Assembly (NCBI RefSeq): GCF_025502585.1
Contig: NZ_CP106679.1
Coordinates: 911,001-975,000 of the forward strand
DNA length: 64,000 nt
Direction of reading: 5' to 3'
Source: Reichenbachiella agarivorans
GTDB lineage: Bacteria > Bacteroidota > Bacteroidia > Cytophagales > Cyclobacteriaceae
Within the stretch, counting starts at the first letter, position 1; each line of letters begins with the position of its first letter. Position numbers and translations under genes: made by a program. The notes under the pieces are model-generated. The model was given only the letters and a program-made list of their open reading frames with translations. It was not told the DNA's origin and made no database searches. Positions 16,301 through 30,328 of the stretch are shown piece after piece.

Positions 16301-16348
16301 GGCACCAATCGCCATGTATTTACTTTTTAATAGTAATAGTCTTTTCAT
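13334..16348 (-). CDS. SusC/RagA-family TonB-dependent receptor
   Basis: This 1004-residue outer-membrane transporter imports oligosaccharides using TonB energy. In order it has a signal peptide (cleavage after SSAQ, about residue 27), a carboxypeptidase-regulatory-like domain (VTGVVTSSEDGETIPGATVLVKGT), a TonB box region (LEEVVVVGYGT), a plug domain with the SusC signature MKIRGGSSINASSAPLVVVDG, a 22-strand barrel, and the C-terminal strand YTVGLNLGF ending in Phe. Its context with alginate lyases predicts alginate oligomers as substrate. A 26-base palindrome lies about 45 bases before the start codon, in operator position. Confidence 0.96.
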   Translation of the reverse strand: MKRLLLLKSKYMAIGAMCLMSFWSSAQSTVTGVVTSSEDGETIPGATVLVKGTSNGTVTDLDGKYSISAPESATLVFSFVGFEMTEVAVAGRSVVDLALKPDYKQLEEVVVVGYGTVKKSDVSGSLSSVKAEDLNAFPTLSAVQGLQGRAAGVQIQSTNGGQPGAEMSMKIRGGSSINASSAPLVVVDGFVGGEMPPPADIASMEILKDASATAIYGSRAANGVILVTTKTGAVGKTKIDFNSSYSYQQTSNRLDLLQGEDFESYIKEALPAYAYDPTVNTDWQDEIYQAGSILNNQISLSGGGENTKFYISATQYDQTGVVLNSGYERYSITSNVQVKASDRINVGMNLYGRRSTDTGILTQESTGGSASTGVIGAAMRLEPDTAPLDADGNYNFSRIGDNIDNPVNIANSLDREKVTDRFQANGFVDIKILDWLSFKSTLGAGVTSYREGQFASSQLKRGGTTGNASLEFDKSTNLLTENYFTINKELGVHRINWVNGYSYQKRVGENLTASASDFLSESTGYWLLESGAGINPSTSYRDTRILKSYYSRAQYTLSDKYVLTGTIRYDGASNFAKNNKWAFFPSAAVAWNLGDEAFMQSIDAISNFKLRGSYGLTGNQGIGAYQSLATLDPRYSNMVGEGSLILGSVANPDLTWETTAQLDIGFDLGLFGDRVTLTGDYYDKITSDLLFFRPIPSFIGVNSTPSVQLQNYGEVQNQGVELMLTTRNLVGELKWTSNLVFSMNRNQVLSLPDTTTSSYSSTPGHFNINSGWQLLQEGQPVGVYYGFVYEGVTQPGDVLLTGSDAKIGGEQFADLDGDGALTEKDKKIIGNPHPDFTWSFNNDLTYKNFDLNVFIQGVHGNDMMNITRMELESMRGTANASATAADRYRFDNPDGKIPSVDPSRTQKISSRWVEDGSYVRLKNIALGYTVPQSVLEKVRVRSLRFYVSAQNLFTITNYSGLDPETAYGNEGEGTNDGDSNRNLGLDYAGYPNVKTYTVGLNLGF

Positions 16349-16392
16349 AATTATTAGTTAAAAAATTTAGCAATTCACTCTAATTGGACGAT

Positions 16393-16418
16393 CAATTAAT
16401 TGGTCTACCAATTAATTG
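16393..16418. promoter_or_regulatory. GntR-type operator upstream of susC
   Basis: Twelve-base arms (CAATTAATTGGT / ACCAATTAATTG) surround a 2-base centre. The core ATTGGTCTACCAAT (16399-16412) is the best match to the motif repeated through the locus. It lies 45 bases before the susC ATG, and a TATATTGG box on the minus strand lies just upstream of it (about 16427-16434). A regulator bound here would block transcription start. Confidence 0.8.
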
Positions 16419-16720
16419 AGACGCCAATATAGATAATATCCAAATAAGTCCACAATGTTTTCAGAAAAAATCTGTGCTTTATGTAATCTGATCAAATTGA
16501 TTACCCGCTATACAATATAACTTCTTTCACACTCTCCATCAAGCGAAAACACCTCCCACTCCGTGAATTTTAGAATGCTGAATACAGCTTCAAGAGATTT
16601 AACAGATCAGCACGACACTTAGATTATGAAAAACTGTCTGCCTCAAATAATGTAAGTGCCTAATCCTTATGCCCTCACATCTATAACATTATAGGTCAGT
16701 ATCATGACAATTGATTTATT
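16419..16720. other. Divergent intergenic region between susC and the first PL7 gene
   Basis: This is AT-rich DNA between two operators. I see no ORF, RNA gene or terminator in it. It probably carries the distal part of the two divergent promoters. Confidence 0.5.
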
Positions 16721-16755
16721 TTGGTCAACCAATTTAATATTTTTTAATCAACCAA
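16720..16755. promoter_or_regulatory. Operator pair upstream of the first PL7 gene
   Basis: TTTGGTCAACCAAT at 16720-16733 matches the locus motif. A weaker second copy, TTAATCAACCAA at 16744-16755, follows with 23 bases centre to centre. A -7-type box TAGGTTTG (16779-16786) lies downstream, so the second site would cover the -33 region of the PL7 promoter. Confidence 0.7.
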
Positions 16756-16827
16756 TAGATAGTATTCTAATAAATAGTTAGGTTTGTTTCATTCATCTGG
16801 GAATGAAACAAGATTAAAAGAAAGATT

Positions 16828-18222
16828 ATGAAGCAGTATTTAATATTACTATCCAGTATTATATGCATCCTATTCCTTGTATTGACGGGGTGCAAAGAAG
16901 ATGAAGGCGAAACCCAAGAGCTACTCAGTGATGCCAAGCAAATAGAAACATTTGTTTTTGATGAATTTGACCCAATCATAACAGGTACCATCACAGCAGA
17001 CCATACAATTGAAATAACCGTTCCTTATGGTACAGATTTGACTAGCATTGTGCCTAGTATTAATATATCTAATTTAGCAACTGTATCTCCAGAATCAGGT
17101 GTCAGTCAAGACTTCACAAATCCAGTCAGCTATACAGTAACAGCAGAAGATGGCACAACACAGATCTATGTGGTGACAGCAGTGATTTCATTAAATGATG
17201 CCAAAGAAATCACCTCATTTATATTCAATGAACTTGATCCCGTTTCATCTGCCTACATAGAGGACGGTGAAATCAAGGCGTGGGTTCAAGTGGCAACAGA
17301 CGTCACGAATCTAGTCCCTACTATAGTCACTTCTGACAATGCTACAGTTTCACCCCTCTCTGGAGTAGGACAAGATTTTTCAACTCCTGTCACTTATACA
17401 GTCACAGCTGAAGATGGTACAACGCAGACTTATACAGTCACTGTAGTAGAAGAAATGGAGTTAGATGTAGATTCAGGCCCTGCCTTCAACTGGATCAATT
17501 GGTATCTATCAGTACCTATAGGCACTAGTGGGGCTACTTCTATCTATTATGAAGACATCGAAAACGATGCATTGAGTGATGAAGCATCCGAATACTTCTA
17601 TCTAAACGAAGATGATAGCTATACGATGTACACCAAGTTCACAGGACAAACTACCTCGGGGGTTTCTGGCATTAATGGTGGTAAGTATTGTAGAACAGAA
17701 TTAAGAGAGTACTGGAGAGGAAATCAAAATACAAATGACAACTGGTTTATGGATGGAAAAAGTTCGCATGCTATGGCTTCTACATTAAAAGTAGATTTCT
17801 GCAATGGTATCGGACAAACATACGTGGCACAGATACATGGAAAATCTACTTTTGGTGTGCCTGGCGATCCTGCAACAGTCAAAGTACTATGGGATAACGG
17901 CGAACTGCTGATCGAATATTACAGAAAGCCTACCCAAGAAGGTGACGAATGGACTAGCAAGTACATCTTCAAGAAGGATATTGGACAAGTGGACAATGAA
18001 ATCTTCACGATCAAACTCAAAGTTCAAAGAGGTGTACTCTACTATGCTCTGCACTGTGAAGCCAAGGACATTGATACTGAATACGTTGAACTATATGATT
18101 ATGCGGCTAATGGCTATGTACATCACAATTACTTCAAAACAGGCAATTACTTTAAATGGAACAGTGACATGACGGAAGACAGTCAGGTCACATTGTATTC
18201 TGTAAGAACAGCCCATAACTAG
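16828..18222 (+). CDS. Alginate lyase, PL7 family, with two DUF5018-like repeats
   Basis: The 464-residue lipoprotein (Cys22 in LVLTGCKEDEG) has two N-terminal repeats of about 85 residues (about 32-115 and 116-205). Each starts DAKxIxxFxFxExDP and ends PVxYTVTAEDGTTQxYxVT, the pattern of DUF5018-type beta domains. The C-terminal part (about 215-464) is a PL7 jelly roll with all three signature regions: RTELREYW, AQIHGKS and YFKTGNYFKW. PL7 enzymes cut alginate by beta-elimination, with Gln/His and Tyr in the catalytic centre. Surface anchoring is likely. It is followed by a close paralogue 146 bases downstream. M/G preference and endo/exo mode are not readable. Confidence 0.93.
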   Translation: MKQYLILLSSIICILFLVLTGCKEDEGETQELLSDAKQIETFVFDEFDPIITGTITADHTIEITVPYGTDLTSIVPSINISNLATVSPESGVSQDFTNPVSYTVTAEDGTTQIYVVTAVISLNDAKEITSFIFNELDPVSSAYIEDGEIKAWVQVATDVTNLVPTIVTSDNATVSPLSGVGQDFSTPVTYTVTAEDGTTQTYTVTVVEEMELDVDSGPAFNWINWYLSVPIGTSGATSIYYEDIENDALSDEASEYFYLNEDDSYTMYTKFTGQTTSGVSGINGGKYCRTELREYWRGNQNTNDNWFMDGKSSHAMASTLKVDFCNGIGQTYVAQIHGKSTFGVPGDPATVKVLWDNGELLIEYYRKPTQEGDEWTSKYIFKKDIGQVDNEIFTIKLKVQRGVLYYALHCEAKDIDTEYVELYDYAANGYVHHNYFKTGNYFKWNSDMTEDSQVTLYSVRTAHN

Positions 18223-18243
18223 TACTAAAAAATTAACAAAACT

Positions 18244-18336
18244 TCAGGGATTGATAAAAATGACGGCACTAGACATGATTTAACCACAAAAGAACGGGAA
18301 TCAATGTCATTAAGATCAAACACTATCAATTCCTGA
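18244..18336 (+). other. Long inverted repeat between the two PL7 genes
   Basis: Arms of 13 bases (18244-18256 and 18324-18336, 12 of 13 complementary) enclose a second, inner stem AATGAC (18259-18264) / GTCATT (18306-18311). No U-run follows. It lies in the 146-base gap between two tandem lyase genes and would form a stem-loop in a shared mRNA, perhaps affecting stability or the expression ratio. Confidence 0.45.
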
Positions 18337-18368
18337 AACACTTAATTCAGGTTAAATAAAATACGATA

Positions 18369-19826
18369 ATGAAACAATATTTACTATTACTATCAGGCAT
18401 AACGCTCCTATCAATAATCACACTTGTGAGCTGCAAGGAAGATGAAGGTGAAAAAATACTCAGTGATGCAAAGCAAATAGAATCATTTGAGTTCAATGAA
18501 TTGGATCCGATTATTACAGGAGTCATTTCTGAAAATAACATTGAACTTACTGTTCCTTATGGCACAGATTTGACTCAGCTAGTAAGCAGTATCACTATTT
18601 CAGACTTAGCTACAATTTCACCTGCTTCGGGCGTAGCCCAAGACTTTTCCGCTCCAGTGAATTATACAGTAACAGCGGAGGATGGTTCTACACAAGAATA
18701 TGTAGTGACCGTGATCACTGCAGAAAACCCTTTTGATGAATCGAAGGAAATACTGTCTTTCGTCTTCGCCGATCTGAATCCTGAAGTCGAGGCTCACATT
18801 GATGAAAAATACAAAGAAGCAGAAGCTTGGCTTCCGTTTCAATCAGACCGCACGAATCTAAAGCCAACCATTGTAGTTTCCGAAAAAGCGACCATTTCTC
18901 CAGCATCTGGCGAGAGTCAAGATTTTTCTTCTCCAGTTACTTACACTGTCACGGCTGAAGATGGAACAACACAGGAATACATAGTATCAGTTTTTGAAGA
19001 TGAAGATGAAACTGGATTTCCTCATGCCGTCCTCAATATGAGAGGTAAATGGAAAATAACATTGCCACTCAATAAATCCGACGAATATGTAACGGACAGC
19101 CATGCAGGTGATGCCAAAGAAATAAAACCAGAAGAACTCATCACTTATGAAGAGTTGACATACGGTTTTTTCAAAACAGTGCAACACCCAGATACCGATG
19201 AGTATGGAGTAGCTTTCTCAGCCAACTGTGGAGGAGAAAGAACCTCAACTGGCACACTTTACTCTAGGTCAGAACTGAGAGAATACAATAGAAATGGCGC
19301 CAGAGATTGGAGCAACGAAGGAAACACTCTTCATAAAATGGTTTTGCGTCAAGCCGTCACACAAGCCCCTACCAACAAACCTGAAGTAGCTGCCGGACAA
19401 ATTCACAATGGCGATGACCAAATTCTCATTCGATTCACTGGCAATGGCAGAGGTAGATATGATGCATACACTGATGGAGATGGAGATATCTGCACAGGGA
19501 CTATCACTGAGGCTGGAGATCCTAACAACAAGACTGGAGATTTAAGATGCTACTACGAAAACAGTAAGCGATATGTCGTACTGGATAACGACTATACACT
19601 AGGAGAAATATTCACTGTCGAAATCATTGCTCAAAACAATCAGGTAATCGTCAACTACAATGGTGAAAATAAATTGACCTGGGATGTCACTCTGAAAAAT
19701 TGCTACTTCAAAGCAGGTTGTTACTCACAATCGAGTTCAAAAAACCAATGCAATGGCAAAAGTTACCCTGATGATGATGTGGATGACTTGGCAGAGGTTG
19801 TTATCTACGATATGGAACTCTACTAA
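18369..19826 (+). CDS. Alginate lyase, PL7 family, second copy with two DUF5018-like repeats
   Basis: The 485-residue lipoprotein (Cys22 in TLVSCKEDEG) has the same plan as its upstream neighbour: two DUF5018-like repeats at about 28-115 and 120-212, then PL7. Its PL7 motifs are SRSELREYNR, GQIHNGDD and YFKAGCYSQSSS, closer to the classical form than those of the first copy (which has KTGNYFKW). The repeats are strongly alike between the two proteins, while the catalytic domains differ far more, so the pair is not a recent simple duplication or has diverged in specificity. It is probably a surface-exposed endo-lyase for another block type of alginate. There is no own operator motif in front, which suggests cotranscription from 16,780. 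Confidence 0.93.
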   Translation: MKQYLLLLSGITLLSIITLVSCKEDEGEKILSDAKQIESFEFNELDPIITGVISENNIELTVPYGTDLTQLVSSITISDLATISPASGVAQDFSAPVNYTVTAEDGSTQEYVVTVITAENPFDESKEILSFVFADLNPEVEAHIDEKYKEAEAWLPFQSDRTNLKPTIVVSEKATISPASGESQDFSSPVTYTVTAEDGTTQEYIVSVFEDEDETGFPHAVLNMRGKWKITLPLNKSDEYVTDSHAGDAKEIKPEELITYEELTYGFFKTVQHPDTDEYGVAFSANCGGERTSTGTLYSRSELREYNRNGARDWSNEGNTLHKMVLRQAVTQAPTNKPEVAAGQIHNGDDQILIRFTGNGRGRYDAYTDGDGDICTGTITEAGDPNNKTGDLRCYYENSKRYVVLDNDYTLGEIFTVEIIAQNNQVIVNYNGENKLTWDVTLKNCYFKAGCYSQSSSKNQCNGKSYPDDDVDDLAEVVIYDMELY

Positions 19827-19885
19827 TTTCAGCACTGCATTTTATTTAGATTGGAAGTTTTGAGTTTTATCATCTATGCTAATCA

Positions 19886-19922
19886 AGATGTAAACATTTG
19901 GAGCAATCAAATGTTTACATCT
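19886..19922 (+). other. Strong stem-loop after the second PL7 gene
   Basis: A perfect 15-base inverted repeat (AGATGTAAACATTTG and complement) has a 7-base loop, 60 bases past the PL7 stop. It is followed by CTAGCTTTATT, so there is no clean U-run. It may be a weak terminator or an mRNA 3'-end protecting hairpin. Confidence 0.55.
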
Positions 19923-19949
19923 ATCTCTAGCTTTATTACTCTCTTCCAT

Positions 19950-20092
19950 TTGGTATTCCAATATATTAATGTACCAATTTACAGCTTGACCGATAATATT
20001 GTCCCAAATCATCCATTTCTCAATATTTTTCAATTCTAAAACGTACTATTAGTTGTAAAAAAGGAATGTATTAATTAATTTGGTCTACCAAT
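19950..20092. promoter_or_regulatory. Operator cluster upstream of the first PKD gene
   Basis: The best site is TTTGGTCTACCAAT at 20079-20092, 63 bases before the PKD start. Two weaker copies lie upstream: TTGGTATTCCAA at 19950-19961 and TTAATGTACCAA at 19966-19977. The weak sites share the half ACCAA or CCAA with the strong one. Confidence 0.65.
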
Positions 20093-20154
20093 TTTTGGAA
20101 CACCATTTCATGTTCCAGTTAAGATTAGGAAAAATTACTATACTAAAATTAAGA

Positions 20155-21072
20155 ATGACTATGAAAAGAACGATTCTAACAAACAACAAGGTTGTAGCCT
20201 TCCTTTCAAAAGGTTTTGTAGCCTCAATAATGGCTATGAGTGTATTAATATTTGCCACTTCATGTGGCGAAGACGATGGTGGGGGGAAAAAAGTAGATCC
20301 TGTTGCTTCATTTACTGCTCAAGTAGAAGTATTTGAGGTCACTTTCTACAATACCTCTGAAGGAGCTGTAAGCTATGCTTGGAATTTTGGGGATGATGCA
20401 ACATCTACTGATCAAAATGTTATACACACCTACGCATCTCCAGGCGACTACACTGTTACATTGACTATCACTGGTGCTGATGGCACTACTTCTACTGCAG
20501 AGAATGTCGTTTCTATTGTAATCCCAGAAGCCGCATTCAAAAATGGAAACTTTGATTTATATGCTAGTGATAGCCCTGACTATCAATTGAATAATGATGA
20601 TTGGGAGCCTGTAGCAGAGAATGGATGGGTAATAGATGAAGCAGTATTTAGAGCTGGTGGTATGACTACTGACGGCAAGTTAGACGCAGAAGGCAACAAA
20701 ACCAATGGCATTAAATACAATGCTCCAAACAGAGGAGTTTACCAAGTGGTTGACGTTACTGTTGGAGCTACATACGAGGTTAAATTCGAGGCTACTACAG
20801 AGGCGCTAGATGTACCAGAAGTTGACCTAGCTACTTTTTATATGTTGAGTGAAATCATCACGAACAAAGATGGCGTAACAGATGCAAACACTTTAGGCAA
20901 AGTCTCTGTTCAAAGTGATCCAAATGGTGGTAAAACATCTTGGAAAACTTTCACATTTGAATTCACTGCTACAACTGACAAAGTTCTTTTCTTCGGAAAA
21001 TCTGTGGATCCAGTAGGATCAGACAGTAATCGTGAAGTTTGGTTTGACAACTTCGAGATCACGTTAAAATGA
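20155..21072 (+). CDS. PKD-domain surface lipoprotein, putative alginate-binding
   Basis: Starting at the ATG at 20155 (MTMKRTIL; ATG at 20161 is equally possible, and the frame is open from 20080), the product has about 305 residues. It carries an SPII signal (LIFATSCGEDDGG), one PKD domain (VASFTAQ ... YAWNFGDDATSTDQNVIHTYASPGDYTVTLTI) and a C-terminal domain of about 170 residues beginning FKNGNFDLYASDSPDYQ and ending VWFDNFEITLK. The last domain resembles carbohydrate-binding beta sandwiches and is shared with the next gene. Position after susCD-linked lyases suggests a SusE/F-like surface glycan-binding protein. No catalytic motif is seen. Confidence 0.8.
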   Translation: MTMKRTILTNNKVVAFLSKGFVASIMAMSVLIFATSCGEDDGGGKKVDPVASFTAQVEVFEVTFYNTSEGAVSYAWNFGDDATSTDQNVIHTYASPGDYTVTLTITGADGTTSTAENVVSIVIPEAAFKNGNFDLYASDSPDYQLNNDDWEPVAENGWVIDEAVFRAGGMTTDGKLDAEGNKTNGIKYNAPNRGVYQVVDVTVGATYEVKFEATTEALDVPEVDLATFYMLSEIITNKDGVTDANTLGKVSVQSDPNGGKTSWKTFTFEFTATTDKVLFFGKSVDPVGSDSNREVWFDNFEITLK

Positions 21073-21095
21073 TACCCTAGCAAAATATAGAATAC

Positions 21096-21130
21096 AAAAA
21101 GCATTGAGTTTGACTCAATGCTTTTTTTTT
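21096..21130 (+). terminator. Rho-independent terminator after the first PKD gene
   Basis: The stem GCATTGAGT / ACTCAATGC (21101-21109, 21113-21121) has a 3-base loop and is followed by nine T. Confidence 0.85.
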
Positions 21131-21256
21131 ACCTCTCCGTATTAGGACAGGTAAATTTGGCAAGATGGTGTAGTTATTTAGAAGAAATAAACTGAAGAAA
21201 TATACTGTTCCAATCCAAATTTATTCTCTCAAAAAAATTTGCGTCATATTTGGAAA

Positions 21257-21300
21257 ACCAATATATTGGTACACCAATCATTGGAAATCCAATGATTGGT
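21257..21300. promoter_or_regulatory. Operator cluster upstream of the second PKD gene
   Basis: The core site ATTGGTACACCAAT (21265-21278) fits the locus motif. It is embedded in further symmetry: ACCAATATATTGGT at 21257-21270 is a perfect palindrome, and ACCAATCATTGG (21273-21284) is repeated inverted at 21289-21300. This gives four ATTGG/CCAAT half-site pairs in 44 bases, 36 bases before the start codon. Confidence 0.7.
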
Positions 21301-21335
21301 ACTAATTACTATATATTTAACATGAAAGACAGATT

Positions 21336-22733
21336 ATGAAAAATTTTACTATTTTCAAAAAGCCATTATCAGGGCTAAAAACATTTACCATGATAATGGT
21401 ATTAGGAGTAGTCTTTACCGCGTGTAAAGACGATGATCCTAAACCAGGTACTGAGCCTGTAGCTAATTTCACCTCAGTGGTGGATGAGTTGAAAGTAACC
21501 TTCACCAACACTTCCACTGACGCGACATCTTACGCGTGGAACTTCGGTGACGATGCTACATCTACTGATGAGTCTCCTGTTCATACTTATGCAGAATCAG
21601 GAACTTATACCGTCACGCTCGTAGCAACTGATGACGATGAGCAATCAAACACAAAAACAGAATCTATCACAGTAGAAGTAGCTGTAGTTGGACCAACTGC
21701 TGGGTTCACTTCTGCGGCTGATTTCTTGGTAGTTACATTCACCAATACCTCAGAAAATGCAACCAGTTATGCTTGGACATTTGGTGATGACCAAACCTCT
21801 ACTGATGCTGCACCAGTGCATACTTATGCAGCGGCTGGTACGTACACCGTCACTTTGGTAGCTACAGGTGCCAACAATTTAACCAACACGACGACCGCTA
21901 GTATTACAGTTGAAGCATCAACTGAGCCAGTAGCAAGTTTTACCTCTGTAGCCAATGGACTTGAGGTGACATTTACCAACACATCCACTAATTCAACTAC
22001 CTATTCTTGGGATTTTGGGGTAGATGGTGACGATACAGACGTCTCTACAGACAAAGATCCCGTTTATACTTACGCTACAGATGGCACCTACACTGTTAAA
22101 TTGATAGCAAGTGATGACAATGGAACAACAAACGAAATTACTGCAGAAGTAACTGTGGCAGCTGCTGCTGTCCTTGTTGTAGAATTTAATAATGGCACAT
22201 TTGATTTGTATGCTAGTACTGATACAGAAAACTATCAGAAAAATAACGATATGTGGGAAGAGCCTGATGGATGGGATGACGCTAATTTCCAAGTAGGGGG
22301 AATGAGTACTGACGGTAAAAAAATTGGTGAGACTAAAACCAACGGTATCAAGTTTGCTGATGCATTACGAGGATTGTACCAAGAAATAGTGGTTGAAATA
22401 GGTACCTCATACACTGTTACCTTCGATGCCTCAACAGAAACATGGATTGATGGTGTGCAAGTAGATAAACTAAAAGCCTATTTGCTAACAGGCCCTATAA
22501 CTTCTGAAACGCAAATAATTGATGACGGGGGTGCAAGTGATAACGTTTATACGTCTGTTACAGCTAAGAGTCCCGTATTGCAAGCAGATGCTACTAAATC
22601 TGGATGGGTCACTTATACAATGAACTTCACAGCAGAAACGACGTCTTTGGTCTTCTTTTTGAAGAGCATTGATCCAGCAGCTGATAGTAATAATGAGAGC
22701 TGGTTGGACAACATCATCATTACTAAGGATTAA
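21336..22733 (+). CDS. Surface lipoprotein with three PKD domains, putative alginate-binding
   Basis: The 465-residue product starts MKNFTIFKKPL and has an SPII signal (VVFTACKDDDPKP). Three PKD domains follow in tandem (about 40-115, 120-200 and 205-290), each with the YxWxFG and PVxTYxxxGTYTVxLxA patterns. A C-terminal domain (about 290-465) opens EFNNGTFDLYASTDTENYQ and ends ESWLDNIIITKD. That domain is clearly homologous to the one in the preceding gene (shared NGxFDLYAS, GGMxTDGK, TNGIK, RGxYQ, FFxKSxDP). PKD repeats act as rigid spacers that lift the binding domain off the membrane. Its own operator cluster and the terminator between the two PKD genes suggest separate transcription. Confidence 0.82.
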   Translation: MKNFTIFKKPLSGLKTFTMIMVLGVVFTACKDDDPKPGTEPVANFTSVVDELKVTFTNTSTDATSYAWNFGDDATSTDESPVHTYAESGTYTVTLVATDDDEQSNTKTESITVEVAVVGPTAGFTSAADFLVVTFTNTSENATSYAWTFGDDQTSTDAAPVHTYAAAGTYTVTLVATGANNLTNTTTASITVEASTEPVASFTSVANGLEVTFTNTSTNSTTYSWDFGVDGDDTDVSTDKDPVYTYATDGTYTVKLIASDDNGTTNEITAEVTVAAAAVLVVEFNNGTFDLYASTDTENYQKNNDMWEEPDGWDDANFQVGGMSTDGKKIGETKTNGIKFADALRGLYQEIVVEIGTSYTVTFDASTETWIDGVQVDKLKAYLLTGPITSETQIIDDGGASDNVYTSVTAKSPVLQADATKSGWVTYTMNFTAETTSLVFFLKSIDPAADSNNESWLDNIIITKD

Positions 22734-22753
22734 TTAATATTAATCCTATAATT

Positions 22754-22786
22754 AAAAGCCGCTTAGAAACCCTAAGCGGCTTTTTT
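22754..22786 (+). terminator. Rho-independent terminator after the second PKD gene
   Basis: AAAAGCCGCTTAG (22754-22766) pairs with CTAAGCGGCTTTT (22772-22784), followed by T. It is 20 bases past the stop, so the esterase gene behind it is probably reached only by read-through or its own promoter. Confidence 0.85.
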
Positions 22787-22818
22787 CTAACCAAACCTGA
22801 GAAAAAATTGCATTAAAA

Positions 22819-23829
22819 ATGAAAAAGATAGCCCCTCTATTCACTTTACTTGCTTTCATTGTTTTTGCTTCATGTTTGCATGAAATCATTTATTCTGACG
22901 ATACTCAATTTGCACCCTATCAACAAAATCCACCATTCACACTTCCAGACAATAGTACCTTTTATCAAAATATCCCCTATGATCAACATGAAAGGAATCA
23001 ATTAGATATTTTCCTACCCGCCCCATCGAATGGAAACTCCTCACCATTGCTAATCATTATTCATGGAGGTGGTTTTGTACAGGGAGATAAAAAACAAGCA
23101 TACTCCAGCTCTTACCACCGCCATTTGATCAATAATTTATTGTCCAAAAACATAGCCGTGTCTACCATCAATTACCGCTATGTAGATGACAATGGAGGCA
23201 TCATGAGAAGCATCAATGATTGTAAAAGAGCCTTGCAGTTTATCAAACACCACCGCGATTCTTTAGGCATAAACAGCTCCAAAATCATCCTAATGGGAAG
23301 CTCTGCGGGCGCTGGGACAGCACTGTATATCGGACTAAGCAGTGACTTAGCCGACCTCACTAGTGCAGAGCCCATACTACACCAGTCTACCCAAGTACTA
23401 GGAGTCATAGGCACCGAAACACAAGCTACCTATGATATAGCCAAATGGGATCAATTGGTATTTTCAACGTACCAAACACTAGGATTTAATCATCAAGACA
23501 TAATATCCATCATCGGAAAATCTAGAATTGAACAATACCTTGGAGCGAAGGATACAGACGTGAATTCTGATGAAACATGGGGTTCTCACCTAGATATACT
23601 GAGTCTGATGACTACCGATGATCCAGAAATCTACATTGCCAACCAAAAAATTGCCAATAGTGTCCCTACAAATAGTTCAGAGCTATACCATCATCCGTTA
23701 CATGCCAAAGTACTGATGGATAAGGCAAAGGAAGCTGGTCTTTCTTCCAGATTTTACATTCCAGAACTGGATATTGACACCCGGGATGAGGAGTCGATAG
23801 AAGATTTTATCTTAAGAAAACTATTGTAA
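22819..23829 (+). CDS. Alpha/beta-hydrolase lipoprotein, esterase-like
   Basis: The 336-residue lipoprotein (Cys19 in IVFASCLHE) carries the BD-FAE/carboxylesterase pattern: the oxyanion HGGGF motif at about residue 76, INYRYV, and the nucleophile elbow GSSAGAG (Ser at about 157). A C-terminal histidine candidate lies in YHHPLHAK at about 292. It hydrolyses an ester; the substrate is not known. Being the last plus-strand gene of the alginate cluster, it could remove O-acetyl groups from mannuronate or act on another ester in algal cell walls, but this is only context. No operator of the locus type is in front of it. Confidence 0.75.
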   Translation: MKKIAPLFTLLAFIVFASCLHEIIYSDDTQFAPYQQNPPFTLPDNSTFYQNIPYDQHERNQLDIFLPAPSNGNSSPLLIIIHGGGFVQGDKKQAYSSSYHRHLINNLLSKNIAVSTINYRYVDDNGGIMRSINDCKRALQFIKHHRDSLGINSSKIILMGSSAGAGTALYIGLSSDLADLTSAEPILHQSTQVLGVIGTETQATYDIAKWDQLVFSTYQTLGFNHQDIISIIGKSRIEQYLGAKDTDVNSDETWGSHLDILSLMTTDDPEIYIANQKIANSVPTNSSELYHHPLHAKVLMDKAKEAGLSSRFYIPELDIDTRDEESIEDFILRKLL

Positions 23830-23940
23830 AAGGTAGGAAAAAATCATCCCCATGCAAGAATGAATAAACTGCCGTTCATAAAAGCCCACACTAGCCAATT
23901 AATTATCAGTCTTAATTCCAATTGAAACGTTGTAATAGGA

Positions 23941-23983
23941 TAAAAGAAAAGGGAGATCTCGTTGAGATCTCCCTTTTCTTTTA
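23941..23983. terminator. Bidirectional terminator between the esterase and SDR genes
   Basis: A perfect 20-base stem (23941-23960 and 23964-23983) has a GTT loop. It starts TAAAAGAAAAGGGAG, so both strands end in T-rich arms. It closes the plus-strand gene at 23829 and the minus-strand operon at 24029. Confidence 0.85.
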
Positions 23984-24028
23984 TAACATCTTTAAATAAA
24001 AATTATTCACTCAATTGTGCAAACAATA

Positions 24029-24790
24029 TTAGATTCCTAAAGCCTGACCTCCACCAATTTGGATCGTCTCTGCTGTAATGAAAGATGCATCATTGCTAGC
24101 AAGGAATGCTACGACAGAAGCAACCTCTTCTGCTTCGCCTAATCTACCCAACAAAATGCTGTTCTTCCATGTAGCAAATACTTCAGGCTTAGTTTCCTTT
24201 ATTTGCGCGTGGAATGGAGTATCAATTGTTCCAGGTGATACGGCATTTACTCTGATTCCATACTCAGCCAAGTCTTTAGCCAATGCTCTTGTAATTGCAT
24301 GAACTCCAGCTTTAGAAGTACCATAAACACCAGCGCCTGGTCCACCTGCATTCCAACCTGCGTTAGATGTGTAATTGATGATTGAAGCATTCTCACCCTT
24401 TTTAAGGAATGGAATGGCAGCTCTTGAAGCAAAAAATACTGAATCAAGGTTGAGAGCCATCACGAATCTGTAAAATTCTGTTGTCATTTCTTCAAACCTA
24501 GCTCTTCCTCCAAGTCCACCTGCATTGTTTACAAGAAGATCAATTTTACCGTACTTTTCACCGATTTTAGTAATGTTTTCTGTTACAGCTTCATCGCTAG
24601 TCACATCAAACCCAACATATTCAGCCTTTATACCTTCTGCAGCTAACTCCTCTACGCATTTAGCTCCTTTTTCATCCTCAATGCCGTTTAAAACAACAGT
24701 GTAGCCATCTTTACCTAATCGTTTGGCTACTGCGAAACCGATTCCACCTGTGGCTCCCGTTACTACTGCTACTTTACCTTCTAATTTCAT
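24029..24790 (-). CDS. SDR-family oxidoreductase, probable DEH (4-deoxy-L-erythro-5-hexoseulose uronate) reductase
   Basis: The 253-residue classical short-chain dehydrogenase has the NAD(P)-binding TGATGGIG at residues 12-19, NNAGG at about 89, the catalytic Ser in NYTSNAG, and YGTSK with Tyr and Lys at about 157-161. In alginate pathways an SDR reduces DEH to 2-keto-3-deoxygluconate in the cytosol. This gene is the last of a minus-strand operon PL17, cupin, MFS, SDR, which supports that role strongly by context. The sequence alone gives only the SDR class, and cofactor choice (NADH or NADPH) is not certain. It lies 25 bases after the MFS gene. Confidence 0.85.
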   Translation of the reverse strand: MKLEGKVAVVTGATGGIGFAVAKRLGKDGYTVVLNGIEDEKGAKCVEELAAEGIKAEYVGFDVTSDEAVTENITKIGEKYGKIDLLVNNAGGLGGRARFEEMTTEFYRFVMALNLDSVFFASRAAIPFLKKGENASIINYTSNAGWNAGGPGAGVYGTSKAGVHAITRALAKDLAEYGIRVNAVSPGTIDTPFHAQIKETKPEVFATWKNSILLGRLGEAEEVASVVAFLASNDASFITAETIQIGGGQALGI

Positions 24791-24815
24791 AGTTGTATAA
24801 ATTTAATATCTAGTT

Positions 24816-26081
24816 CTATTTTATTTCTATTCTCTTAATTTCCTTACATAGTACAAATATTGCAATCACACTCAATGGCACGAATGCACCAATGATCACA
24901 AATGCTGGCGTGTATGAAGTCTCCGTAATGAATGGGATGAGGAAATTCATTCCTATCACACAGAAAAGACCAACTGTCCCTCCAAATCCAGCCAATGCAC
25001 CCACAGATTTTCCGCTCAACAAATCACTAGGGATAGTCTGTACATTGCTAATTGAAAACTGAAAGCCAAACAGGACAACAGCCACAATACCTACAAACTT
25101 TTCAGGTGTATCTGCCATGAAAATGGTAGCTAGCAATCCCAAAAACATAAGTACCGCGCCAATGGAAATAGTTGTTTTTCGTGCCTTATCTACTCCCTTT
25201 CCTTGTGAGATCAGCTTTCCAGCGAACCATCCACCTGCCATACTACCAATAGCTGCACCTACATAAGGTACCCATGCAAACATCCCGATTTCTTTAACAT
25301 CAAAACCATATGTGTCAGCCAAGTAAATAGGCATCCATCCTGCAAACAACCACCACAGTGGCTCTAGAAAGAATCGAGATGCAGGTACAGACCAAGCTTC
25401 TTTGTGAGATAAAATCTCACGCAAAGACAATACTCGTTCTTCCTCATCGCTAGTCTGAGCAGGCTGATCAGATAATATATGATCTTGCTCTTCTTTGGTA
25501 ATCCAAGGGTGCTTCTTAGGAGCAGCCTTGTTGATGATCAACCATGGAATCACCCATAGCAATACCAAACTACCAACTATCACAAATGTCAATCTCCACC
25601 CATATCCAAGATATAGCATGGCAATAAGCGGTGGTGCAATCACAGATCCCATAGAGGCCCCAGCATTGAATATACCTTGTGCCATGGCTCTCTCCTTTGC
25701 GGGAAACCACTCTGCATTACTCTTCACGGCTCCAGGCCAATTACCCGCTTCGGATACGCCGAGCATCACTCTGAACAATCCAAATGACATGAGTCCTGAT
25801 GCCACCGCATGCAAAGCAGTCGAGGCTCCCCAAGCCATAATACTGACGACATAGCCCATTCGAGTGCCTATTTTATCAAACATCCTCCCCGAGACTGACT
25901 GCCCAATAGCATAGGCCACCATAAACACATTCAACATGATAGAGTAATGATGCTTAGTAAATCCAAGCTCTTCTGATATACCAGGCCACATCACACTGAT
26001 AGCCGTCCTGTCAATGTAGTTGATTACCGTCGCTATAAAAATCAACACTATAATCCACCACCTTAGTCCTTTTACTTTCAT
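24816..26081 (-). CDS. MFS transporter, hexuronate/DEH type (ACS family)
   Basis: The 421-residue protein has 12 predicted transmembrane helices and the anion:cation symporter (ExuT-like) pattern: N-terminal WWIIVLIFIATVINYIDRTAISVMWP, the loop 2-3 motif GRMFDKIGTRMGY, and the EAGNWPGAVKSNAEWFPAKERA region typical of hexuronate and glucarate transporters. It would import unsaturated monouronates or DEH across the inner membrane by proton symport. Position between KdgF-like cupin and SDR supports this substrate. Start ATG at 26081; it is 66 bases after the cupin stop. Confidence 0.88.
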   Translation of the reverse strand: MKVKGLRWWIIVLIFIATVINYIDRTAISVMWPGISEELGFTKHHYSIMLNVFMVAYAIGQSVSGRMFDKIGTRMGYVVSIMAWGASTALHAVASGLMSFGLFRVMLGVSEAGNWPGAVKSNAEWFPAKERAMAQGIFNAGASMGSVIAPPLIAMLYLGYGWRLTFVIVGSLVLLWVIPWLIINKAAPKKHPWITKEEQDHILSDQPAQTSDEEERVLSLREILSHKEAWSVPASRFFLEPLWWLFAGWMPIYLADTYGFDVKEIGMFAWVPYVGAAIGSMAGGWFAGKLISQGKGVDKARKTTISIGAVLMFLGLLATIFMADTPEKFVGIVAVVLFGFQFSISNVQTIPSDLLSGKSVGALAGFGGTVGLFCVIGMNFLIPFITETSYTPAFVIIGAFVPLSVIAIFVLCKEIKRIEIK

Positions 26082-26147
26082 GTTCTAATATTTAGTCTTT
26101 CAATTCCAGTTGCAAACACTGTGTATTGCACTGCTTAGTACCCTAGC

Positions 26148-26519
26148 TTATTTATTTCCAAAATATGATACTTCACCTCCCTCAAGAAAATCCTCTCGTA
26201 CGGGGCTAAACACATCAATAAGTATCCCTGCTTCTAGACAAACTGCACTATGAAGTACATTTGGTTCCATGTAGATACCATCGCCAGCTTTTACAATTTG
26301 CTTTTCTCCACCTACAGTAAACTCAAATTTACCTGCGGCACAATAAGTAGACTGTGTATGAAAATGAGCGTGAGGCGACCCCAAAGCACCTGCTTCGAAT
26401 TTGACCTGTACCATCATGATCTGATTGTCATATCCTAAGAATTTACGAGAAACCCCTCCTCCCAATTCTTCCCATTCCATCTTATCAGCTAAAATAAATT
26501 TGTCACTAAACCTCTTCAT
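26148..26519 (-). CDS. kdgF: KdgF-like cupin, unsaturated uronate linearisation
   Basis: The 123-residue single-domain cupin has the metal-binding pattern in SPHAHFHTQSTY (His50, His52, His54/Gln56) and a later His90 in EPNVLHSAVC, as in KdgF. KdgF proteins convert the cyclic 4,5-unsaturated uronate released by alginate or pectin lyases to its linear keto form (DEH). The N-terminal MKRFSDKFILADKMEWEELGGGVSRKFLGYDN fits the family. It lies between PL17 and the MFS transporter, the expected order of use. No signal peptide, so it acts in the cytosol. Confidence 0.88.
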   Translation of the reverse strand: MKRFSDKFILADKMEWEELGGGVSRKFLGYDNQIMMVQVKFEAGALGSPHAHFHTQSTYCAAGKFEFTVGGEKQIVKAGDGIYMEPNVLHSAVCLEAGILIDVFSPVREDFLEGGEVSYFGNK

Positions 26520-26564
26520 AATATTCGTTTGTTAATCGCTTTTACTTGTCAGCAAACCATACGT

Positions 26565-28892
26565 CTACTTGACTTGATAATAATAAGGCCCTGTCCAGAC
26601 CAATTTTTCTGCATCAATTTCTATTTCGTGTGTTGTATCTGTGCCATTGTCCAAGCGGCATACAACCAATCTGAGCTCAGATCCCCCCGTATGTCTGATA
26701 CTCAAGGCAATGAATTCCTCGGATTGAAAAGTAATGGAGATGTTATCGACCATAGAAAAGGCATTGGTAGAAAACTCACTCACTGGCGAATACTGTCCAT
26801 GTGACTCCAATACAGAAGCAAAAACCGCATTTTTGGCTTGTCTTCTCAACATAAACATCGGATCAGAACGTAGGTTGTGATGTGGATCATTGGCTCCTAT
26901 TCTACCCAACAAAAACTCATCGCCATCACCTGTCACAGCAGTCCAAGAATAAAATTTATAATCCTGCATCCAAGTCATCTTGGTATTGGATGGCAACTGA
27001 TCTGAGCGGCCTTCTTCCCAAATATGCTGGTAGCCATTTTTCTCACCCATTGGCTGGAGTGTCGCGTTTGTCTTGTAATTTGAATTGCTAGACAAAATCT
27101 GTCCGAAATAATAGTAGGGTAAATCGTAACTATGTGACTCAACTGCACGCACATCAAACAGATCTATAACGAGCGGCTTTTCAAACAATGAATCTGCGAC
27201 GAGACAAATGGTTCTCTGCATAGCGACCCCTTCATAGGCATTTACATCTTTGGCACTAGCTATCTGAATATCAGAGCGGTTCTTATCAAAGAAAAATCGA
27301 TCTGAATGATGGAGATTGGCTTTGTCTATTTTACCTCCATAGTTGGTGTTTTGATCCACTACCAGCGTATTGTGAGCAATCGTTTGCTTCGAAAAAGTCT
27401 TGTTTTCTTTGAGGTATCCTCCCCCATCCTTTTGTTCAATATTAACAAATCTCGCCACCCCATAATCCTGTAGCACTTCATCGCCATTTTCATACAGCGA
27501 ATAAGAAAGTTTGTCATAGTGACCATGTCCCATTCCTTGGGCAGTGTATTTCAATACAGCGTTGATATCTCCACCACTGTGATTCATTCTGAGGATGCCT
27601 ACACCACCTTCGCTACCGTCAGCTCCATCTCTCAGCTCCAAAGACTTGGGAATGAATGGTTTGGCTTTACCCTGAGTGATAGCTTGCGCCACACTAAAGC
27701 CCGTAGCATCCAAGAGTACTTTTTCTTGTTTTTCTGCTATAGAAAGTAGCTCAGGGTTTTGACCCGCAAAATGATACACAATATCTACTGCAGACACGAG
27801 TTCTCTGGAGTAATAAGACATGCCCTTTTGCGCATCATTGATCGGATAAAATTCCCCATCACTGTCTGCTAGATTGACCAGTGCATATACAGCTTTGGCC
27901 AAGATATTTTCTCTATGTTCGAATATTTTCAAATCAGGTCTGGCATTCTCAAGGCTCGCTGCAAATACCACAAAAGGATAAATTGCATACCGCTGATAAT
28001 AGGGACCTTCGGCATAAAAGCCATCAGGTGAGAACAGCATATCCATCTGTGCCAAGAAGCCTGCTCTATTTTGACCAGGAGCCAAAATACTGCCTCCGTC
28101 GTTATCCTTGACACCCACTGCCAAAGTATCAATTTCTAATCCATACAAAGCACGTTGAATCAATTCTTCGTCCTTCATTACCAAGCCCATCATGCCTACA
28201 CCTGCACAGGCCCAAGTACTATGATTATGAATACGGTTAAAGAACTGGGGATTTTCTACCGAAAGAAAATCTGCGTAGGGTCTGAATAAGTTTTTCTCTA
28301 GATTTTCTTTCTGCTCCTCATTCAACCAATCATATATACAATCATAGGCCTGGCTTGTGTACACCATCCAGTTGGCATCATTAAGAGACTGCCAAAAAAG
28401 CTTACCTCTAGTATAGGATTTTTCACTTGGGTGCAACGACAAGGTAGGGAAGAGTTTCGCATATTGCAGTAGCATATCATGGATATAAACAGCATATTTC
28501 TCATTACCAGTGATCATGAAAAGATTACCTGCCTTTTGCATGGTCAAGTAGTTCAGCTTGTGACGCTCATGGGTATATCCACCTGCCAAATCCTGAGGTA
28601 CAGGAACCTCTATACCGTTGGCAATCTCCTGTTCCACTTGCCTCATCGCCTCTTGAATTGATTCATTGAACAAAGGAATATTTTTATACTCCTTTTGAAT
28701 CAAAGCAAGAGACTGTTTATCAAACAAAATACTTTGGTGATTCAAACCCACTGTTGTCTTTTGTTCCTGACTGCATGATGCCATGACGCACAACAGCAGC
28801 AGGTTCAAACACCCAATAAGCACTATACGATGTACTACTAAATCTATCTTCACTATACGATCACTCATATTCAATTTCCTAGTCTTTATCAT
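26565..28892 (-). CDS. Oligoalginate lyase, PL17 family
   Basis: The 775-residue lipoprotein (Cys40 in LLCVMASC) has an N-terminal alpha/alpha toroid (about 60-400) and a C-terminal heparinase II/III-like beta-sandwich domain (about 430-770). The PL17 catalytic residues known from Alg17c have counterparts: Asn223-His224 in IHNHSTW and Tyr298/299 in AEGPYYQRY, with His in GMGHGHYDKL. PL17 enzymes degrade alginate oligomers from the end to unsaturated monouronate. The lipobox suggests periplasmic or surface anchoring. The start may be 28892 or the second Met at 28868 (MSDRIVKIDL). It is the first gene of the PL17-kdgF-MFS-SDR operon. Confidence 0.92.
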   Translation of the reverse strand: MIKTRKLNMSDRIVKIDLVVHRIVLIGCLNLLLLCVMASCSQEQKTTVGLNHQSILFDKQSLALIQKEYKNIPLFNESIQEAMRQVEQEIANGIEVPVPQDLAGGYTHERHKLNYLTMQKAGNLFMITGNEKYAVYIHDMLLQYAKLFPTLSLHPSEKSYTRGKLFWQSLNDANWMVYTSQAYDCIYDWLNEEQKENLEKNLFRPYADFLSVENPQFFNRIHNHSTWACAGVGMMGLVMKDEELIQRALYGLEIDTLAVGVKDNDGGSILAPGQNRAGFLAQMDMLFSPDGFYAEGPYYQRYAIYPFVVFAASLENARPDLKIFEHRENILAKAVYALVNLADSDGEFYPINDAQKGMSYYSRELVSAVDIVYHFAGQNPELLSIAEKQEKVLLDATGFSVAQAITQGKAKPFIPKSLELRDGADGSEGGVGILRMNHSGGDINAVLKYTAQGMGHGHYDKLSYSLYENGDEVLQDYGVARFVNIEQKDGGGYLKENKTFSKQTIAHNTLVVDQNTNYGGKIDKANLHHSDRFFFDKNRSDIQIASAKDVNAYEGVAMQRTICLVADSLFEKPLVIDLFDVRAVESHSYDLPYYYFGQILSSNSNYKTNATLQPMGEKNGYQHIWEEGRSDQLPSNTKMTWMQDYKFYSWTAVTGDGDEFLLGRIGANDPHHNLRSDPMFMLRRQAKNAVFASVLESHGQYSPVSEFSTNAFSMVDNISITFQSEEFIALSIRHTGGSELRLVVCRLDNGTDTTHEIEIDAEKLVWTGPYYYQVK

Positions 28893-28896
28893 GCAG

Positions 28897-28986
28897 TTGA
28901 TTAACCCAGCTCACGCTAGACACTTTTCATAAAGTGCATTTTGAGTCTGTCAGCAAAGTATTGGCGGACTTTCATCCACCAATATT
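28897..28986. promoter_or_regulatory. Degenerate operator-like sites upstream of the PL17 operon
   Basis: TTGATTAACCCA at 28897-28908 matches the locus motif TTGGTnnACCAA at 9 of 10 defined positions less one more at the right arm, directly before the PL17 start. Further upstream, arms at 28957-28968 and 28975-28986 (10 of 12 complementary, each with ATTGG or CCAAT) form a wider palindrome. Neither is a perfect site, so regulation of this operon by the same protein is less certain. Confidence 0.4.
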
Positions 28987-29277
28987 CACATTCAAACTAA
29001 TTATTAATTGTAACCCAAATCTTATTAGAGATATACCAAAATTGAGTTTTGCAAATCTGAATGGACATCAGAATGGCACTGTGACCAGGAGAGATTCTAA
29101 TAAAATATAGTCGACCTGTAGAATTACAGATAATTACTATATTTGTAATGGTGATTAATCTAATTCAATGAAGATACCGACGGCCAAATTGATATTTATA
29201 TTGATGTGATTATCCCTCCTAAATGGATTAGCACTTGGTTAATCCATTTTTTTTGCACTAACTTTTTAGTACCCCTT
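28987..29277. other. Intergenic region between PL17 and gntR
   Basis: No ORF is present. It holds a plus-strand -7-type box and a plus-oriented terminator, listed separately as a candidate small RNA. The rest is AT-rich without clear signals. Confidence 0.4.
29138..29254 (+). ncRNA. Candidate small RNA on the plus strand
   Basis: A Bacteroidota -7 box TATATTTG (29138-29145) is followed about 100 bases later by an intrinsic terminator: AAATGGATTA (29221-29230), 9-base loop, TAATCCATTT (29240-29249), and a T-run to 29254. The hairpin is oriented for plus-strand transcription, although both neighbouring genes are on the minus strand. No ORF lies inside. I see no good -33 element. This is a candidate only. 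Confidence 0.3.
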
Positions 29278-30018
29278 TTATTTTTTTCTCTTCTTAAGAT
29301 TAAATTGTTCCACTTGTAGCGTATTTGAAAAATCCAATATATCGCTAAGGTGATCCCTCATCGCCTGAGTAGCCTTTTCAATATCCTGCTCTTTTATGTA
29401 GAACAATATTCTTTCGTGCAACTCCAATGCCGTGTCAGACCTTCCATCCCCACAAGCATCTAGTTCTCTATAATTTGTCAAAATATCGGGCGTAATCACC
29501 AACATCAACGATTTAAGCACCGAATTTTTACTAGCCTCTGCAATACTCAAGTGAAACATCAAATCCTCATCTACCGCATGAATACCTGCATCCTTTTTTT
29601 TCTTATAAGCAGCCAGAGCACTTTCAATATTTTCAATATCCTCCTCTGTCCTGTTTTGTGCAGCCAAAGCAGCAGCATTGGTTTCCAATATAACTCTGGT
29701 CTCTACGAGAGATCTAAAATCTTTCACTTCAAGTCTCAAAACATCTGAAATCAAACCTTCCAGGGCTGTCATTCCTAGTCCAGCAACGACTGTCCCACTT
29801 TGTGGAAGTGTCTTGAGGATCCCATAAAATTCAAGCTTTTTTATCGCATCCCTTACATGTGATCGACCGATACCAAAAACTTCACAAAGCTTCCTTTCTG
29901 GTGGAAGTTTATCTCCTGGTTTGAGTTGACCAGAAGTGATTAACTCCTTTATTTGGTTGATAATCTTATCTACTGGTGTTTCGATTACGATTTGTGTGAA
30001 GTTATTTAACAATTCCAT
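29278..30018 (-). CDS. FadR-subfamily GntR transcriptional regulator
   Basis: The 246-residue protein has an N-terminal winged helix (VDKIINQIKELITSGQLKPGDKLPPERKLCEVFGIGRSHVRDAIKKLE, about 17-64) and a C-terminal all-helical FCD ligand domain (about 95-230). The FCD domain includes the usual metal-site residues (Asp in DEDLMFH, and later His in HERIL and MRDHLSD). FCD regulators typically bind sugar acids and recognise TGGTnnACCA-like palindromes. The window holds six such palindromes, one of them directly upstream of this gene, so I infer it is the local repressor, released by a uronate or KDG-like ligand, and autoregulated. Confidence 0.92.
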   Translation of the reverse strand: MELLNNFTQIVIETPVDKIINQIKELITSGQLKPGDKLPPERKLCEVFGIGRSHVRDAIKKLEFYGILKTLPQSGTVVAGLGMTALEGLISDVLRLEVKDFRSLVETRVILETNAAALAAQNRTEEDIENIESALAAYKKKKDAGIHAVDEDLMFHLSIAEASKNSVLKSLMLVITPDILTNYRELDACGDGRSDTALELHERILFYIKEQDIEKATQAMRDHLSDILDFSNTLQVEQFNLKKRKK

Positions 30019-30041
30019 TCGTTATTTGTTGACCCATTGTT

Positions 30042-30057
30042 AATTGGTTGACCAATT
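30042..30057. promoter_or_regulatory. Operator upstream of gntR (autoregulation)
   Basis: AATTGGTTGACCAATT is a palindrome with 7-base arms, 24 bases before the gntR ATG at 30018. It contains the core ATTGGTnnACCAAT. Confidence 0.75.
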
Positions 30058-30328
30058 TAGTTATTTATTACCCAAGGACAAATTTTTTAAGAAAAATTTT
30101 ATTTTCTAACAAAATATATCACAGGCAATTTACCATCAAAAACCATATTTTGCTATTCATAAAGTAGCTTTTTAGCTACGTCATGCCTGTGACAAACACG
30201 TGAGAAACAATCTCTTATTTTGATTTCAGGTCTTTTTTTGCGACATTCACTTTTGGTTAACCAATAATTGACATTCCAGTTTTTGGGAAGCCAAAAGAAA
30301 GACTATTTTTTAACTATTAAAAATTATT
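30058..30328. promoter_or_regulatory. Divergent control region gntR / third PL7 gene
   Basis: It contains the operator core TTTGGTTAACCAAT (30252-30265) 64 bases before the PL7 start, and an additional short palindrome TTTTGG/CCAAAA at 30281-30296. Separate symmetry of a different kind is also present: TCACAGGCA (30119-30127) and its complement at 30184-30192, and GTAGCT/AGCTAC at 30164-30179. The last two may be binding sites of another regulator. Confidence 0.6.

Follow-up and report, generated by a model that had tools for sequence, protein, structure and literature searches.

The locus and its palindromes

Alginate is a major polysaccharide of brown seaweed. A 64,000-nucleotide stretch of the genome of Reichenbachiella agarivorans, a marine bacterium that digests seaweed (contig NZ_CP106679.1, positions 911,001 to 975,000; the whole stretch is called the window) contains what is, judged from its gene content, an alginate utilisation locus. 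The host genome, 4,474,154 bases, is a single contig, here C1. Pfam domains in the locus identify susC, susD, three PL7-type lyases (PL7a, PL7b and PL7c), two PKD proteins, an esterase-like protein, an SDR protein, an MFS transporter, a KdgF-like cupin, a PL17-like lyase and a regulator with GntR and FCD domains, gntR (Table 1). The PL17 and KdgF assignments are our own readings of Pfam domains, and PL6, found elsewhere in the genome, is read from Pfam Chondroitinas_B. The subject of this report is a short palindrome repeated before these genes, the predicted operator of the GntR protein, together with a candidate structured RNA encoded beside gntR. The point of reference is AusR of Zobellia galactanivorans, described as a GntR repressor of the alginate system that controls most alginate genes (PMC8286568, PMC8073546, PMC7874173).

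An earlier note on this DNA had described the palindrome at six promoters, with variation only at base 1 (A or T) and at the two central bases. All six copies are present where it placed them and vary only at those bases; no seventh exact match occurs in the window. The window scan returned nine strand-rows for the six places, and 100 dinucleotide shuffles gave a mean of 0.09 and at most 2. The sites are close to the start codons, with about 50 bases between site and ATG for susC, 94 for PL7a, 68 for PKD1, 57 for PKD2, 24 for gntR and 63 for PL7c. The ATG of PKD1 is at 20161; the listed open reading frame begins at a TTG instead.

A whole-genome motif scan, which the same note had proposed as a check, found WTTGGTNNACCAAW nine times, compared with a single occurrence of the reversed control pattern. 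Eight of these exact sites stand before alginate genes and one before a chemoreceptor gene. Three lie outside the window and had been missed: one before an operon with TIM-barrel and PL6-type genes (C1:1261415), one before a PL6-type gene (C1:3436219), and that of the chemoreceptor (C1:71772). When one mismatch is allowed, the genome holds 114 sites and the control 51, so lone weak sites mean little, and lists of one-mismatch operators were rejected as regulon evidence on their own because they are too noisy. The stretches examined hold 22 distinct sites that score 11/12 or better, and 17 of them fall within open frames of at least 100 codons. Two results weigh against the operator reading: one-mismatch sites are common, and PL7b has no exact site before it in the host genome.

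Table 1. Genes, predicted operators and the candidate RNA gene of the alginate locus, and the distant chemoreceptor gene. Positions are those of the window unless C1 or locus L010 is named; R1 is the paired-operator model described in the text.
Feature	Position	Strand	Basis or detail
susD-type surface protein	11699..13285	-	Pfam
susC-type TonB-dependent receptor	13334..16348	-	Pfam
susC operator array	16383..16428	.	strong 16399-16412; weaker 16383-16396 and 16415-16428, step 16; R1 E 0.0032
PL7a operator	16720..16756	.	strong 16720-16733; weaker 16743-16756, offset 23; R1 E 0.39
PL7a and PL7b alginate lyases	16828..19826 (16828-18222 and 18369-19826)	+	Pfam Alginate_lyase2
Further array before PKD1, absent from the earlier note	19949..19978	.	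11/12 and 10/12 copies, step 16
PKD1 operator pair	20079..20107	.	20079 and 20094, step 15; R1 E 0.0021
PKD1 and PKD2, PKD-domain proteins	20161..22733 (20161-21072 and 21336-22733)	+	Pfam; PKD1 start from sequence
PKD2 operator triple	21249..21293	.	21249, 21265 and 21280, steps 16 and 15; R1 E 0.0098
PL17-like lyase (26565-28892), KdgF-like cupin, MFS transporter, SDR	24029..28892	-	without a good operator of their own
Candidate structured small RNA gene, convergent with gntR	29138..29256	+	-7 box TATATTTG 29138-29145; start estimated near 29151; terminator stem 29221-29249 and T tract
GntR regulator with FCD domain, predicted AusR-like repressor, 246 aa	29278..30018	-	Pfam GntR 1.9e-17, FCD 2.9e-23
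gntR-leader operator	30043..30056	.	preceded by TAA on the gene strand, giving TAAATTGG over a -7-like box; weaker copy 30024, offset 19
PL7c operator array	30252..30295	.	weaker copies 30267 (8/12) and 30282 (10/12), step 15
PL7c, third PL7-type alginate lyase	30329..32116	+	Pfam
Chemoreceptor: Reg_prop and Y_Y_Y sensor repeats, HAMP, MCP signalling domain	C1:67898-71662; L010 1896-5663	-	domain search
Predicted operator before the chemoreceptor gene	C1:71772 = L010 5773-5786	.	exact palindrome

Operator arrays

The predicted operators stand in arrays with a step of 15-16 bp, or 13 bp in one other family (f55). The weaker tandem copies beside the strong sites had escaped the earlier note. For 35 exact sites from the host genome and the family loci, 20 mates of at least 9/12 were found at 15 or 16 bp, as opposed to 0.47 in shuffled flanks (largest 3); mates at all other offsets numbered 18, with 7.05 in the shuffles. 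The same is seen in the leaders of 65 loci with orthologs of the regulator, where 29 mates occur at 14-16 bp (1.35 shuffled) and 16 at other offsets (9.9 shuffled). The step rule, with its different value in a second family, makes cooperative binding directly testable.

The second family emerged from a class-wide sample, in which 17 of 395 genomes have the GntR protein at E<=1e-60. Four of the 17 belong to f55, with 47-49% identity, comparable alginate loci and the 13-bp operator step before susC. These repeats are found at L277 18458-18497, L278 2933-2959, L279 2637-2663 and L280 18121-18160.

The GntR regulator and its leader

Both domains of the regulator, the N-terminal GntR winged helix and the C-terminal FCD domain, score above the Pfam cut-off, which places it in the FadR/FCD subfamily. 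Its closest relatives among titled loci are in Reichenbachiella agariperforans (87%) and R. faecimaris (74%). The palindrome, TTGGT-NN-ACCAA, fits the FadR-subfamily consensus as presented in PMC4494728 (TKGT and ACMA boxes, with GT and AC 2-3 nt apart); binding by the protein is predicted. The earlier note had given 3 nt between the half-sites of FadR-subfamily palindromes. The spacing of GT and AC is 2 nt here, and both spacings occur among the FadR-subfamily groups described in that source.

Of the 65 ortholog loci, with titles that include Cytophagales, Saprospirales, Bacteroidales and others, 51 have a site scoring 11/12 or better in the 200 bp before the gene (shuffles 0.58), and 31 of the leaders have an exact site (shuffles 0.02). 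Autoregulation, as the earlier note supposed, is strongly indicated because the palindrome accompanies the orthologs so regularly. The 14 leaders that lack a site of at least 11/12 weigh on the other side. Not all of these counts are independent, since the loci partly overlap the genomes G148, G124, G118, G006 and G075, and L186 and L187 belong to one assembly.

Four FCD-domain residues, D152, H156, H201 and H223, are invariant in 64/64 rows of an alignment of the window protein with 63 of the 65 loci (two proteins shorter than 200 aa were dropped). We take them to be the metal site of FCD domains, which bind carboxylates.

The sites also overlap a likely promoter element. Among 50 of the 51 gntR leaders (one repeat was dropped), TA stands exactly four bases upstream of the site in 16 of the 20 leaders with T-first sites (background 0.11), generating TAnnTTTG, which we take to be the Bacteroidota -7 box. 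A-first sites have their TA three bases ahead in 13 of 30 cases (background 0.10). Fewer than half of the A-first sites therefore show the overlap, and it was counted in gntR leaders only; both points count against promoter overlap as a general feature.

Extent of the regulon

From 23 leaders outside the genus we built R1, a model of operator pairs that uses sequence only, and ran it against eight genus genomes. The 23 were taken from 34 operator pairs, none from a locus titled Reichenbachiella, after three identical copies, five pairs of total score 19, and L158, L165 and L193 (score 20) had been dropped. For the host genome, R1 gave 19 rows at E<=3. These represent 11 distinct places, 10 of them regulon promoters: PKD1, susC, PL6 (C1:159984), PKD2, PL7 (C1:171953), PL6 (C1:1261409), gntR, PL7c, PL7a and the chemoreceptor (C1:71772). 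The predicted regulon is larger than the six promoters first described, with distant PL6 and PL7 promoters and that of the chemoreceptor added.

Relatives give similar lists. Eight places were found by R1 in G068: PKD1, two PL6 promoters, gntR, the chemoreceptor ortholog (E 0.078), susC, PL7c and one place in a coding frame. Exact sites before PL7a and PL7b of G068 are not among the R1 places listed. R. agariperforans (G148) has exact or 11/12 sites before susC, PL7a, PL6/PL7b, PKD1, gntR and PL7c.

Several results of this search weigh on the other side. The eleventh place in the host, C1:2825093, is inside a coding frame, and two PL6 promoters were missed, C1:3436219 with one exact site and C1:4296576 with a pair found by pattern. 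In addition, the R1 search considered no more than the 150 best first-look candidates of each genome. The earlier picture, a regulon of the local GntR protein, is sound in its main lines: the palindrome follows the GntR gene. Six promoters were too few, the operators are arrays, and the PL17 operon has no good operator of its own. For a second bacterial order, the mapped regulon supplies a list of promoters that can be tested.

Behind the operator array C1:171953-171980 lie two neighbouring PL7-type lyases, both of which have a ricin-type lectin domain (L137 4142-6844, +).

The PL17 operon

The PL17-KdgF-MFS-SDR genes have only a 10/12 copy of the palindrome before them, at 28970, in a stretch that is not conserved in two aligned relatives. 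Comparable gaps between gntR and the next operon were examined in 24 of 26 loci with a match to the RNA discussed below (two with PL6 as neighbour were left out). No gap has a site of at least 11/12 (0/24), and all 24 gntR leaders do, so that read-through is the simplest reading: the PL17 operon is probably transcribed from the autoregulated gntR promoter. Alternatively, these genes could have a degenerate operator of their own, such as the copy at 28970, or another regulator, with no read-through from gntR. The intergenic gap of 385 bp, with a hairpin in it, would suit this explanation. With good sites missing from every comparable gap and the 28970 stretch not kept in the two aligned relatives, we regard it as unlikely, if the most serious of the alternatives considered here.

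A chemoreceptor in the predicted regulon

In the chemoreceptor encoded near C1:71772, the sensor part is matched by hybrid two-component sensors of known structure (4a2l, E 3.4e-90) and the tail by known chemoreceptors. CheW-domain genes are present. Among the eight genus genomes, a full-length close form occurs only in the host and in G068 (72% identity), and a site pair stands before the G068 ortholog. The host also has a second Reg_prop chemoreceptor of the same build (C1:487230; L135 5530-9306, +), whose leader lacks any site of 11/12 or better.

The site at C1:71772 could instead serve divergent transporter genes. ABC-type and FtsX/MacB-type genes are the divergent neighbours in both genomes, so the assignment to the chemoreceptor rests on distance, and position cannot decide fully. 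In each genome, about 110-120 bp separate the site from the start of the chemoreceptor gene, compared with about 240-255 bp for the ABC gene, and a sensor half like those of glycan-sensing hybrid two-component sensors suits a polysaccharide regulon; the transporter assignment is improbable on these grounds. Among the papers listed by a literature search, none, judged by its title or the start of its abstract, concerns a chemoreceptor within an alginate regulon, and no paper of the collection searched has both Reg_prop and MCPsignal. Were such a receptor part of the regulon, feeding and behaviour would be linked in gliding bacteria.

A candidate structured RNA beside gntR

The gap between gntR and the PL17-like gene contains a block conserved among three species. 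Its + strand opens with TATATTTG; at the far end are a hairpin of 12 pairs and, after it, a T tract. A covariance model made from the three species, R2, found matches in 20 of 196 family genomes at E<=0.01. The best 14 (E<=1.3e-4; three are the training species) are all located at a gntR ortholog, 3' of the gene.

The next comparison used 31 matches selected because they are 3' of gntR and omitted L300-L304, the locus repeats L138, L139 and L156, and weak matches in other places (L140, L150, L078 and a further, partial one in L147). All 31 are on the strand opposite gntR; 28 end between -17 and +57 bp from the gntR stop, and three weaker ones are 95-147 bp away. The -7 box is exact in 25 of the 31, the 3' tail is T-rich on the + strand, and no operator of at least 10/12 occurs in the 80 bp upstream of any of them (0/31). 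Past the 5' end of the RNA, each of the 26 loci counted (L291, L305, L141, L152 and L161 were left out) has a divergent gene as the next homologous one: susC in 20, PL17 in four and PL6 in two. In the host window, this neighbour is PL17. L094 has two gntR copies with an RNA copy at each (8242-8351 and 12067-12189), and the pair seems to have been duplicated together. Under a second model, R3, L302 1546-1642 scores E 8e-5; the 3 kb examined there contain no gntR ortholog, and it may be a stray homolog.

The fold varies in a coordinated way. In a 24-row alignment, 27 of 32 pairs show two-sided changes, as opposed to 16.4 in shuffled and 6-14 in slid alignments; outside the terminator the number is 18 of 19. 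Paired cells amount to 90.8%, compared with 72.3% shuffled and 24-48% slid, a value inflated by the fitting of this alignment (A5) to the structure. The occurrence of 74 G-U cells and 14 A-C cells favours the + strand. The RNA body has a mean folding z of -2.17, and the reverse strand one of -0.75 (22 hits). A core, GATACCGATCGCCAAATTGATATT, is nearly invariant in 11 rows chosen from one subgroup; other RNAs have a different loop.

Instead of being a + strand RNA gene, the block might be part of the gntR transcript or of what surrounds it, as a terminator, an attenuator or a tiny peptide. A hairpin at the gntR 3' end could serve both strands, and a 13-codon open reading frame can be read on the + strand in the host (12 and 10 codons in two relatives). 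The length of that frame is not kept, and the exact -7 boxes, the T-rich tails, the strand bias in folding and in G-U cells and the two-sided changes in the body all point to a + strand RNA gene, which makes these possibilities quite improbable.

Other results are less favourable. Five of the six remaining R2 matches (E 0.001-0.005), L302 among them, lack a neighbouring gntR and were excluded from the membership. With R3, eight family loci with a gntR gene (L073-L076, L090, L092, L101 and L103) gave no match at E<=0.5, nor did the L169-L202 loci searched or L277-L285. Finally, the RNA body showed no pairing with 19 leaders beyond that of shuffled sequences (duplexfold; best z -0.95, susC).

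Rfam 15 has no family at its gathering threshold in 10000-33000. A loose threshold gave only sub-threshold matches, the best being RF02454 ncr982 (31.8 bits versus 50, E 0.0032). The literature search on the RNA was narrow, and earlier sightings are possible. The RNA is antisense to the sequence that separates gntR from the following operon, and so might affect read-through or the susC/PL17 5' region. We tentatively propose, leaning slightly to the sceptical side, that in the Cytophagales regulators of the AusR type come with an RNA partner of their own, structured and about 105 nt long, with its own promoter, directed toward the repressor gene and governing the run of the repressor transcript into susCD or PL17, and that the regulon also switches on a chemoreceptor whose sensor domain resembles glycan sensors. 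If true, alginate use would have a protein and an RNA layer encoded in one spot, and digestion would be tied to movement. If a conserved RNA does belong with one repressor family, polysaccharide use would gain an RNA layer outside gut Bacteroides, in which RNAs of this sort are under study.

Interpretation and comparison with known systems

The palindromes are very probably operators of the local GntR/FCD protein, acting as an AusR-type alginate repressor, and we extend the same high confidence to the full explanation with promoter overlap, PL17 read-through and the RNA. Dimers would bind side by side, covering the -7 box and start site and shutting the promoters. By analogy with AusR, and given the invariant D-H-H-H set, repression would be relieved by a uronate or KDG-type ligand, as the earlier note had suggested; an alginate-derived sugar acid bound in the FCD domain would release the operators. 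That the ligand is an alginate breakdown product is again suggested by AusR. gntR and the PL17 operon downstream of it (elsewhere susCD) would be read from one autoregulated promoter. Between the two units, the structured RNA, encoded on the other strand under a promoter and terminator of its own and lacking an operator, would most likely adjust expression of the downstream operon or the passage of gntR transcription into it. That another regulator binds the palindromes, gntR being a mere neighbour and target, is very hard to credit: TGGT/ACCA palindromes are common to many FadR-subfamily groups as described in PMC4494728, but this one agrees with the consensus given there and accompanies gntR orthologs across orders, and the host genome has one match to the GntR protein at E<=1e-20.

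From the sequences compared, the regulon is real and probably of the AusR kind, a kind already described in Zobellia. Both systems combine a GntR gene and an alginate locus; PL7, PL6, PL17, SusD-like and PKD proteins are shared, and promoters here carry one to three operator copies where AusR operators are reported in "single, double or triple copies" (PMC7874173). AusR is known here by description, and against that description the variant consists of a Reichenbachiella (Cytophagales) host, the 15-16 bp operator step, the promoter overlap, the chemoreceptor promoter and, above all, the RNA gene beside the repressor. A fixed operator step that shifts between families was not met in the literature consulted on AusR and GntR operators.

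Extra weaker boxes near strong GntR palindromes are described for 13 FadR-subfamily groups in PMC4494728, whose set is without Bacteroidetes FadR-subfamily proteins. Unlike those boxes, the neighbours here are whole palindromes, mostly 15-16 bp away.

For the RNA, the nearest comparison is DonS and related Bacteroides antisense RNAs, described as divergent from susC and partly anticorrelated with it, with positive correlations too (PMC7366714, PMC10994844). The likeness is one of position, DonS being known here by description: a short RNA divergent from the susC of a polysaccharide locus (20/26 hits; from PL17 in the window). In contrast to the DonS type as described, the present RNA lies between a repressor gene and susC or PL17, has a conserved core and a fold that covaries across genera, and is tied to one regulator family.

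NanR of E. coli is described as a GntR-type sugar-acid repressor of which several dimers occupy repeated operators, with DNA binding weakened by the sugar acid (PMC8012715). According to that description, NanR binds GGTATA repeats and requires a 32-residue N-terminal extension, whereas the Reichenbachiella protein has only about 16 residues ahead of its GntR domain, and its predicted operators repeat whole palindromes. Family f55, at 47-49% identity, has alginate loci and operators similar to those of Reichenbachiella.

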